From Psychroflexus gondwanensis ACAM 44 (GTDB taxonomy: Bacteria; Bacteroidota; Bacteroidia; Flavobacteriales; Flavobacteriaceae), in NCBI RefSeq assembly GCF_000355905.1, contig NZ_APLF01000005.1:186001-250000 (forward strand): 64,000 bases of DNA, in the 5' to 3' direction. This document shows, piece by piece, positions 8,051 through 51,507 of the stretch. Numbering within the stretch: the first letter of the stretch is position 1; each line of letters opens with the position of its first letter. The notes beneath the pieces were generated by a model that saw only the letters and a program-made list of their open reading frames with translations, made no database searches and was not told the DNA's origin. The position numbers and the translations under genes were made by a program.

Positions 8051-8896
8051 ATGACTAAAATTGCTACAATTACACTTTTATTTGCTATTTTGATGACCTC
8101 ATGTGTTTCTAAGAAGAAAATGAACCAAGTTGAGAATCAAAAAACAGCCTTAGAACAAGAACTTTCTGATCTGAGATCTGAACAGCAAAATTCCAACGAC
8201 AACTATGCAGAGCTTGAGGACGAAGTTTTGTCTTACAAGCAGAAAATTGCCAACTTACAAGGTGATGCTGAAAACAAAATCCAACTTACCGATAAAGGTA
8301 TGCTGGTTTCTGAAAACACCAAATCGAATGTGAGAAAAGTATTTTCTAAAATGCCAGTCGACCAACGTTCTAAAGCTAATACGTTGGAAGATTCGATCAA
8401 CCTTGCTGTAGCCTACAACATCAAGTCGAACCTTTTAAAACAGATGAAGGATGAAGACAAAGTTGCAGATGAGGCAATTGAAATTACTGTGGAAGAGCCT
8501 ATTGTAAGAATAACCTTAACTGATAAAGTTTTATTTAAAAGCGGAAGTTATTGGGTCGATAAAAAGGCTTATAACCTTTTAGCCAGAATTGCAGAGGTGA
8601 TCAACTCGGAGCCAAATATGGACATTAGAGTTGAAGGTCACGCCGATAATATGAAAATTTCAGAATCTTCATACATCGTAGATAACTGGGATCTAAGTAT
8701 TCGTAGAGCAGCTTCCGTAGTGAGGACTTTGGAAGATAAGTTTGGAGTGGGCGGAGATCGTCTTATTGCTTCTGGCCGAGCTCATTATTATCCTGTAGCA
8801 GATAATGCAACCAAAGAAGGTCGCGCAAAAAATAGAAGAACCACTATTCTTCTGTTACCTAAGGTGGACCGTTACATGGATATATTAAAAAAATAA
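8051..8896 (+). CDS. OmpA-family peptidoglycan-binding lipoprotein
   Basis: A 281-residue outer-membrane lipoprotein. The N-terminus is a short signal peptide ending in the lipobox MTSC (Cys17), followed by a lysine-rich linker and a coiled coil of about 50 residues rich in Glu, Gln and Leu. The C-terminal third is an OmpA domain (VEGHADN, then NWDLSIRRAASVV, carrying the Asp and Arg that hold the diaminopimelate side chain of peptidoglycan). It probably tethers the outer membrane to the cell wall. A strong terminator follows the gene. Confidence 0.92.
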   Translation: MTKIATITLLFAILMTSCVSKKKMNQVENQKTALEQELSDLRSEQQNSNDNYAELEDEVLSYKQKIANLQGDAENKIQLTDKGMLVSENTKSNVRKVFSKMPVDQRSKANTLEDSINLAVAYNIKSNLLKQMKDEDKVADEAIEITVEEPIVRITLTDKVLFKSGSYWVDKKAYNLLARIAEVINSEPNMDIRVEGHADNMKISESSYIVDNWDLSIRRAASVVRTLEDKFGVGGDRLIASGRAHYYPVADNATKEGRAKNRRTTILLLPKVDRYMDILKK

Positions 8897-8916
8897 AAGA
8901 ATTCACTATAAATAAG

Positions 8917-8950
8917 AAAAGCCTGCTTGTAAACATCCAAGCAGGCTTTT
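8917..8950. terminator. bidirectional intrinsic terminator
   Basis: A perfect 13-bp stem (8917-8929 with 8938-8950) with an 8-base loop, between the converging OmpA-family and dienelactone hydrolase genes; A and T tracts flank it. Confidence 0.92.
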
Positions 8951-8972
8951 CAATTACAACAAACAAACTTAC

Positions 8973-9827
8973 TTATTCGCTATAAAGGTCTTTAAAAAAT
9001 AATGTCATTTTTTCCCAAGATTTTTCTGTTATTTCTTTATCATAAGCTAGTGGAAGATCGAATTTTTCACCTAAGCTATCGGCATCTTTATTGGTAAAAG
9101 AATGCATCACGCCTTCATAAGCAATATACTCATAATCAGCGTTGATAGCATCTAATTGAGATTTGAATGTTTTTTCTTGCTCATCGGTAATCATCATATC
9201 TTCGGCCCCATTTTGAATTAAAAGTTTGGCTTTCAAATCTTCATTTGGCATAACTGGTAAACCAAGTCCACTATGAAAGACAGCAACTCCATCTAAGTCA
9301 GCACCAGAATTGGCCATCGACAAGGCTACACTTCCACCAAAACAAAAACCTATAGCTGAAATCTTTTCTGCATCTACATTCTCATCAGCTTTTAGAGTTT
9401 CCATCGCTGCCATAAAACGTTTTTTAGCAGTGTCAAAATTCTTCATCACGTTGCTAGAAAATGCCATAGCTTCCTCTGGATGTTCAGCTTGTTTTCCATT
9501 TCCATACATATCGACGGCTAGAGCTACATAACCCATTTCAGCAAGTTCATCTGCTTTTTGTCTTGCGAACTCATCGTGACCCCACCATTCGTGTACTACA
9601 ATAATTCCAGGTCTTTTACCTGACGTAGCAGTATTTCTGGAAATATATCCGTTTAGCATTATAGAGTCTGAGGCTTGATAGGAAATTTCATTTCCTATTA
9701 TCTCGGTCGAATTTTCTTCTTGGACTACTTCTACATTTTCTTCTGAAGTGTTTTCCTTTTTATCAGCCTTACAAGCTAATACACTTACTGTGAGCGTAAA
9801 TAATAGTATCCAATGATAATTTTTCAT
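8973..9827 (-). CDS. dienelactone hydrolase family lipoprotein
   Basis: A 284-residue alpha/beta hydrolase with a lipoprotein signal peptide (lipobox VLAC, Cys19) and an acidic linker of about 25 residues. The hydrolase core shows VVHEWWGH, the nucleophile elbow GFCFGG with Cys in place of Ser as is normal for dienelactone hydrolases, the acid in GAEDMM and the His in MHSFTN, so the catalytic triad is complete. As an exported lipoprotein it probably acts on an extracytoplasmic ester or lactone, but the substrate cannot be read. It is 10 bases downstream of the DUF2452 gene and very likely in its operon. Confidence 0.92.
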   Translation of the reverse strand: MKNYHWILLFTLTVSVLACKADKKENTSEENVEVVQEENSTEIIGNEISYQASDSIMLNGYISRNTATSGKRPGIIVVHEWWGHDEFARQKADELAEMGYVALAVDMYGNGKQAEHPEEAMAFSSNVMKNFDTAKKRFMAAMETLKADENVDAEKISAIGFCFGGSVALSMANSGADLDGVAVFHSGLGLPVMPNEDLKAKLLIQNGAEDMMITDEQEKTFKSQLDAINADYEYIAYEGVMHSFTNKDADSLGEKFDLPLAYDKEITEKSWEKMTLFFKDLYSE

Positions 9828-51324: not shown

Positions 51325-51351
51325 AGTATTGATTCTCGTTTTTTAAATTAA

Positions 51352-51386
51352 AAAACCCGTTAGAGCATAGTGCTCAAACGGGTTTT
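51352..51386 (-). terminator. his attenuator terminator hairpin
   Basis: Minus-strand AAAACCCGTT (51386-51377) pairs with AACGGGTTTT (51361-51352), with inner GAGCA/TGCTC and loop, then a T-tract: a strong intrinsic terminator 28 bases before hisG. Its 5' arm is also complementary to a segment of the leader ORF. Confidence 0.93.
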
Positions 51387-51431
51387 GTATATGATTAACT
51401 ATCTACATATTACATTCCAACCGCGTTGAGC
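51372..51431 (-). promoter_or_regulatory. his antiterminator pairing
   Basis: GCTCAACGCGGTT in the leader ORF (51431-51419) pairs with AACCCGTTTGAGC of the terminator 5' arm (51384-51372): 6 bp, a 3x3 internal loop, 4 bp. The pairing excludes the terminator. Confidence 0.75.
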
Positions 51432-51469
51432 GTATTAGATAAATAATGATGTAGGTTGTAATTTTTCAT
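51410..51469 (-). CDS. histidine leader peptide
   Basis: A 19-residue ORF, MKNYNLHHYLSNTLNAVGM, preceded by a perfect -7 box. Codons 7 and 8 (51451-51446) are both CAT for His. It lies between the promoter and the hisG terminator. The segment CTCAAC-GCG-GTT of this ORF is complementary to the terminator's 5' arm. Two His codons are few compared with the seven of E. coli hisL. Confidence 0.85.
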   Translation of the reverse strand: MKNYNLHHYLSNTLNAVGM

Positions 51470-51476
51470 CGCAGTG

Positions 51477-51507
51477 CAAATTTAGAATAAAATATGTAAT
51501 CCTAAAA
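51477..51507 (-). promoter_or_regulatory. his operon promoter
   Basis: A perfect TAAATTTG (51484-51477), 7 bases before the leader ATG, with TTTT as a -33 element 19 bases upstream. Confidence 0.72.

Follow-up and report, generated by a model that had tools for sequence, protein, structure and literature searches.

The eight-gene his operon of Psychroflexus gondwanensis ACAM 44 is very probably governed by a ribosome-mediated transcription attenuator, a reading made strong by comparison with related genomes. Its leader contains a short ORF with two adjacent His codons, a segment late in this ORF that can pair with the 5' part of an intrinsic terminator, and a hairpin that would hold this segment back by default. 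These parts, their conservation, their alternative pairings and the co-variation between them are established here by sequence comparison and folding.

Layout of the his leader and the proposed switch

All parts lie on the minus strand of the window, by which we mean the whole stretch of 64,000 nucleotides that was analysed. The promoter-like box, the 19-codon ORF, its CAT CAT codons and the terminator were found at the positions given in the original prediction for this DNA.

51484-51477, minus strand: promoter box of the Bacteroidota -7 type, TAAATTTG (sequence)
51469-51410, minus strand: leader ORF MKNYNLHHYLSNTLNAVGM, 19 codons plus stop
51454-51449, minus strand: segment A (CTACAT), which includes the first His codon and forms the 5' side of the protector hairpin (folding, co-variation)
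51451-51446, minus strand: adjacent His codons CAT CAT inside the leader ORF (sequence)
51431-51419, minus strand: segment B, the antiterminator strand, in the late part of the leader ORF (folding)
51408-51403, minus strand: segment C (ATGTAG), right after the leader stop, partner of A in the default fold (folding)
51393-51386, minus strand: segment D, immediately upstream of E (weak, from folding only)
51384-51372, minus strand: segment E, the 5' part of the terminator, with B or the 3' arm as partner (sequence, folding)
51386-51352, minus strand: intrinsic terminator hairpin, -20 kcal/mol (folding)
51355-51350, minus strand: T run of the terminator, six T (sequence)
51324-50467, minus strand: hisG, first gene of the his operon (Pfam HisG and HisG_C)
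50467-44306, minus strand: seven more his genes (ORFs and Pfam)

All eight genes of the operon lie downstream of the terminator. Behind hisG follow histidinol dehydrogenase, an aminotransferase (hisC-like), an IGP dehydratase with phosphatase (hisB-like), a glutamine amidotransferase (hisH-like), two His_biosynth proteins (hisA and hisF) and PRA-CH/PRA-PH (hisIE), where the single gene names are in part our assumption from the usual operon order. The leader ORF starts 7 nt past its TAnnTTTG box, and B begins 14 bases past the second His codon, as had been predicted. The complementarity claimed between 51431-51419 and 51384-51372 was likewise found at exactly these coordinates, with 10 of 13 positions matching by eye in a rigid register; the folded form of B:E comprises 12 pairs and, on either strand, a bulge of a single base. 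A simple terminator scan did not include the his terminator among those it listed, presumably because a mismatch interrupts the stem.

In the model that we infer, which comprises translation of the ORF, the ribosome footprints, the timing and the response to histidine, RNA polymerase would start transcription a few nucleotides upstream of the leader ORF. In the absence of a loaded ribosome, the A:C protector would sequester B and the terminator would form between E and the 3' arm, F. Fast translation up to the stop codon would place a ribosome over B, and the terminator would form again. When charged His-tRNA is scarce, the ribosome would stall at CAT CAT, covering A and leaving B free; B would then pair with E once this is made, before F leaves the polymerase, and transcription would proceed into hisG.

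Conservation and alternative pairings in relatives

For the comparison, 21 loci of the genus and the best 80 of at least 505 relatives provided 101 hisG upstream regions, of which 93 are distinct, our own included. Aligning related his leaders, a check suggested with the original prediction, revealed no leader that lacked the His ORF or the complementary arm: a short ORF with His codons is present in 93/93 regions, and E:B pairing in 92/92 of those folded. The His codons are adjacent in 91 leaders and arranged as HFH in two. A typical leader peptide of the wider family reads M(K/R)N.NTHHHFYTC.QAR up to the stop, and at the nucleotide level the leader ends in CUCAAGCG or a variant, followed by the stop, a AUGUAUUGUAGU-like stretch, AACCCGUUUGAG...CAAACGGGUUUU and then hisG. 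The 92 folded rows were selected by a terminator pattern in which CCCG and GGG are obligatory, which partly builds in the invariance of these letters; the sole region lost, L076, has the parts by eye. Across the 72 rows outside Psychroflexus, all of which were selected by the same pattern, the terminator pairs are present in 99.7% of cells. The presence of only two His codons, which had been described as part of a minimal form, is correct for our leader and lies at the low end in general, since 80 of the 92 leaders have three (58) or four (22) in a row, against two in 10 and HFH in 2.

By eye, the stop codon falls inside B in seven leaders (L005, L043, L066, L072, L193, L216 and L223), so that the antiterminator strand spans the leader end there; a ribosome at the stop would cover B either way.

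We folded the leaders with and without a ribosome footprint, as had also been proposed, by removing the RNA that the ribosome covers and cutting the transcript before the 3' arm of the terminator. With the ribosome stalled at the His codons, the probability of E:B exceeded 0.5 in 92/92 leaders (mean 0.88, own leader 0.91), the weakest values being 0.53 and 0.54 in L014 and L013. Dinucleotide shuffles of the stretch from the stall site to E (9,200 in total) gave a mean of 0.25, with 21% reaching 0.5, and for our own leader 1 of 100 such shuffles paired E with B equally well. Without a ribosome the mean was 0.57 (own leader 0.51), and with a ribosome at the stop the probability is 0 by construction of the test. 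Conservation, co-variation and folding all support the reading in which B is freed by a stalled ribosome and covered by one at the stop, with the stop state holding by construction.

Of the 17 stalled leaders shown, 16 still favoured the terminator at equilibrium when folded at full length, with the 3' arm present, and antitermination must therefore depend on timing, with B pairing first. Winning by being first is usual among attenuators. Similarly, because B:E also forms at equilibrium without a ribosome, the protector would help only if it forms first; the notion that the default pairing blocks antitermination completely was dropped, as B:E exceeds 0.5 without a ribosome in 53/92 leaders.

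The additional pairing of CTACAT with ATGTAG, suggested earlier as a possible default structure, occurs in the predicted fold and is part of a conserved protector hairpin, which holds B in its upper part; with this hairpin also formed, the leader is less minimal than had been claimed. In our own leader the protector region has a z-score of -2.9, with 0 of 60 shuffles as stable, and over the 92 leaders the mean is -3.4, with 86% below -2. RNAalifold on all 92 rows returned the terminator alone, which we attribute to the variable number of His codons and to a shift of B in Psychroflexus, both of which break the alignment columns. Changes in the protector were counted on a folded consensus of the 72 non-Psychroflexus rows outside L001-L021, leaving out 20 rows. 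In this set, both partners have changed in 83 cells, compared with 39.9 in column shuffles that ignore kinship among rows (0/300 reach 83), while 5 of 300 shuffles match the number of such pairs. Paired cells amount to 80%, against 34-55% in six slid versions of the structure and a narrowly lower 76% in the column shuffles (0/300 reach 80%). This is good support and not a strict test, because the structure was derived from the rows that were counted, as many as 59 double changes occur in the slid versions and the shuffles pair nearly as many cells as the structure does. Two leaders, L021 and L089, have almost no A:C stem.

In the stalled fold, 51414-51406 pairs weakly with D, which suggests that D may have this partner in the antitermination form; the C:D region has a z-score of -0.65 in our own leader and a mean of -1.3 over the 92.

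Within the family, the 72 rows show hardly any variation in the core B:E pairs, and proof of B:E by co-variation thus rests on the order and the class. L011, which shares its upstream region with Psychroflexus halocasei (L025), has a U in B opposite an A in E. Elsewhere in the order, other families have CGUCUGAG, CGCUUGAU, CGCCUGAG or CCUGCCGAAG as E, and in most of them B changes accordingly; B:E folds in these leaders (L182-L195, L197 and L200) have 7 to 14 pairs. When partners were exchanged among 27 leaders, 16 from the order and 11 chosen from the 92 of the family, own B:E pairings gave -10.8 kcal/mol against -8.8 kcal/mol for exchanged ones, with 0/20,000 permutations as extreme in a statistic that ignores kinship. 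Class-level leaders have unrelated sequence, as in L216 and L223, where B is GGGUAAGC and E is GCUUACCC, and B still lies at the leader end. We tested six of the 12 class-level leaders, namely those with a clear terminator before hisG and without the doubtful L222; in each of these (L215-L219 and L223) B and E are complementary, a match that no more than 10 of 500 letter shuffles equalled. Of four leaders from outside the class, L231 (11 of 500 shuffles equally good) and L232 (21) give marginal results, and L229 (44) and L230 (144) do not stand out clearly from chance.

Sister leaders, promoters and rival explanations

The genome carries comparable leaders outside the window. Before pheA (L213) lies a leader ORF MTTRFYFYFNFYFASLAKRG with B CGAAACGAGG and E CCUCGUUUCG; over 10 bases, the end of this ORF is a perfect complement of the terminator 5' arm, with 0 of 500 shuffles as good. 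The leader gives a sub-threshold match to Rfam Phe_leader (32.3 bits, cut-off 55), and a pheA 5' element is already listed in PMC9723704. A second leader, at L103:1512-1646, contains the ORF MNNKNTYYHYYPLLNSRIG and precedes a phenylalanine hydroxylase gene (PF00351; L103/L202), with 3 of 500 shuffles as good. Tyr-rich leaders before this short phenylalanine hydroxylase gene carry YYHYY, YYYYY, YYYY or, in L205, spaced Tyr codons, and their B:E pairing was equalled by 1 (L203), 17 (L204) and 21 (L205) of 500 shuffles. Eight homologues of the short enzyme occur in 249 family genomes, four of them with a Tyr-rich leader (our own, L203, L204, which is identical to L141, and L205); the genes in L206 and L207 seemingly sit directly behind another gene, and L208 (identical to L140) has no leader in the stretch examined. 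In a scan of 12 biopterin hydroxylase loci, Tyr leaders were found only in our own genome and in L141, and none at the nine long-form loci (about 590 aa). This arrangement suggests that phenylalanine hydroxylase is controlled by tyrosine supply.

The trpE leader of this genome, MLKTNNNSWWWSLLRQTS, contains WWW, starts 4 nt past a TATGTTTG box and matches the Rfam family RF01692 (Bacteroid-trp) with 57.3 bits at a cut-off of 49; its B:E test was negative (384/500 shuffles as good), and L210 and L212, which encode other chorismate-binding enzymes, have no leader in the stretch examined. In our own genome, the codon run is thus His before hisG, Phe/Tyr before pheA, Trp before trpE and Tyr before phenylalanine hydroxylase, and leader codons that follow the gene product support the ribosome as the sensor. 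This correspondence weighs against a different sensor, in which a protein or a metabolite such as histidine itself would bind the protector hairpin and the His codons would be incidental. The hairpin is stable and co-varying, as a binding site might be, and room for a ligand is left by the lack of any Rfam family above cut-off on the his leader; its letters, however, vary between genera, and together with the matching codon runs this makes a ligand switch very unlikely.

Upstream of the leader ORF, a TAnnTTTG (43) or TAnnTTTA (32) box ends 4-10 nt before the start codon in 75 of the 92 leaders, our own included, most often at 7 nt. At a distance of 3-9 nt, TAnnTTTG is found in 41/92 leaders against 2/409 other upstream ATGs, and TAnnTTTA in 32/92 against 0/409. 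Close spacing is missing in 17/92 leaders, Aquimarina among them: four have TAnnTTTG at 18-19 nt and 13 have neither box. With the Bacteroidota promoter box at -12 to -5 (PMC9723704, accessible part), this spacing predicts transcript starts 0-6 nt before the leader ORF in the 75 leaders and, for our own, a start near 51472, about 3 nt ahead of the start codon. The his leader transcript is predicted to be near-leaderless, which would be unusual, since leaderless mRNAs make up only 5.5% of the mapped mRNAs reported there.

The promoter also bears on the possibility that the leader ORF is fortuitous or non-regulatory, with the hairpin serving as the ordinary terminator of the upstream SPFH/Band 7 gene and hisG transcribed by read-through or from a later promoter. 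The SPFH/Band 7 gene does lie on the same strand, and short HH-containing ORFs are not rare, as 5/52 window ORFs of at least 150 aa have one within 260 nt upstream, the his leader included. However, the promoter box stands between that gene and the leader, our own sequence has no TAnnTTTG between the his terminator and hisG, and a His ORF accompanies pairing B and E segments in every leader folded (92/92), so that we give this explanation little more than nominal credence.

At the level of the phylum, we examined 20 hisG regions, 12 from the class (every one there with hisG) and 8 from more distant relatives; an HH-containing short ORF lies within about 260 nt of hisG in 17 of them (12/12 and 5/8), compared with the 5/52 given above for window ORFs. 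Between leader and hisG, the scan found no clear GC-rich intrinsic terminator in five class-level loci (L214, L221, L222, L224 and L225), L222 perhaps having an AT-rich one, and another mode of control, perhaps Rho-dependent, is possible in these. By eye, a hairpin in each of the five includes the last His codon or codons, for example ATCACCAC-CAT-GTGGTGAT in L224, and in three of them takes in the leader stop as well. Even with such relatives, and with the proposal that leader genes near a gene raise its translation by re-initiation (PMC4833913, accessible part), control acting mainly on translation or ribosome re-initiation at hisG and not on termination is scarcely credible here, as the leader stop and hisG are 85 nt apart and a strong terminator occupies the space between them.

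Distribution and relation to known attenuators

A model of the attenuator, R1, was built from the 92 leader sequences and matched in 219/249 family genomes, a count of model matches; position relative to hisG was compared in the 11 genomes with both listed, where the best match ends 22-84 nt from hisG. A hisG protein search in 20 of the 30 family genomes without a match found none, although completeness is 90% or more in 12 of the 20 and the same query finds hisG in 103/118 phylum genomes. In the order, R1 matches occur in 58/148 genomes, 21 of them of our own family, a figure that overstates the true his leaders because some matches are false: of 20 stretches retrieved from the order, 16 have hisG together with a His leader, and the matches in L196, L198, L199 and L201 were rejected as his leaders, being terminators without hisG. 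Judged by these sequence matches, the his switch is common to Flavobacteriaceae, and its general plan reaches further.

A further R1 match in our own genome (L104) was rejected as a terminator between convergent genes. Within the window, weak R1-type matches on both strands at 8874-9041 (28-29 bits) probably mark a bidirectional terminator.

Compared to the his attenuator of E. coli and Salmonella (RF00514), the present leader has in common the adjacent His codons, the competition of terminator and antiterminator, the downstream his operon and the regulatory logic. The enterobacterial leader has seven His codons and alternates between stems A:B, C:D and E:F and stems B:C and D:E, whereas here two to four adjacent His codons are combined with a single antiterminator that pairs over a long range, B:E, and with an A:C hairpin that encloses B by default. 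The description as classical attenuation is therefore apt for the logic and not for the stem scheme. RF00514 itself gave no match at gathering score in the window, at E <=5 in L102 or at E <=0.5 in L001. The enterobacterial trp leader (RF00513) stayed below its cut-off on the leader's own strand (24.4 bits against 41), and the ORF has no Trp codon; this sub-threshold match spans 51347-51425 on the minus strand (L001:2378-2456), the 3' half of the his leader, and probably reflects terminator shape only. No T-box match at gathering score was found by Rfam in the 64-kb window. RF01692, a leader RNA of the same phylum that concerns tryptophan instead, does not match the his leader.

The original prediction had also held that amino acid attenuators are little described in this phylum, which proved too strong, given the RF01692 match before trpE in this very genome and the naming of a hisG 5' element in PMC9723704. 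That structured element, listed in 2021 for Flavobacterium psychrophilum, is probably the same as the his leader described here; it too concerns hisG in Flavobacteriaceae, and in the accessible part of that source it is described without peptide, pairing, mechanism or distribution. An ORF at or next to the transcription start, as predicted here, is also known from the leaderless ilvBNC attenuator of Corynebacterium glutamicum (PMC11857589, accessible part) and, as far as the accessible sources go, from the polycysteine ORFs of mycobacteria (Actinobacteria), in both cases for other amino acids and in another phylum. Leader peptides had previously been known only in Proteobacteria and Actinobacteria before Firmicutes were added (PMC2965389, accessible part), and a survey of his genes in Bacteroidota mentions attenuation, in its accessible text, only for enterobacteria (PMC8305728). 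In the open-access literature, as far as its texts were accessible, we found neither a his attenuator mechanism in Bacteroidota nor a Tyr leader before phenylalanine hydroxylase; older surveys (e.g. Lopatovskaya 2010) may contain predictions of either. In short, neither the principle nor the existence of the element is new; for its parts, mechanism, spread and sister elements, we found no description in the literature searched.

More tentatively, and with somewhat more doubt than confidence, we propose that these leaders share a common and largely undescribed Bacteroidota plan, consisting of an almost leaderless ORF in which the final codons and the stop repeat the sequence of the terminator 3' arm, with a protector as the default, and used widely with His, with Phe at pheA and with Tyr at phenylalanine hydroxylase. 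Under such a plan B would resemble F, and segment E would choose between two look-alike partners; leaderless initiation may provide a second input to the switch. If this plan is true, phenylalanine hydroxylase would be a regulated source of tyrosine, and not merely catabolic.

Bacteroidota are abundant in the sea and in the gut, and the regulation of amino acid synthesis in them is poorly known. A family-wide element with a clear mechanism would provide a simple histidine sensor to test and a candidate Rfam family, as well as a case for asking how attenuation works when an RNA seemingly begins with its leader ORF.
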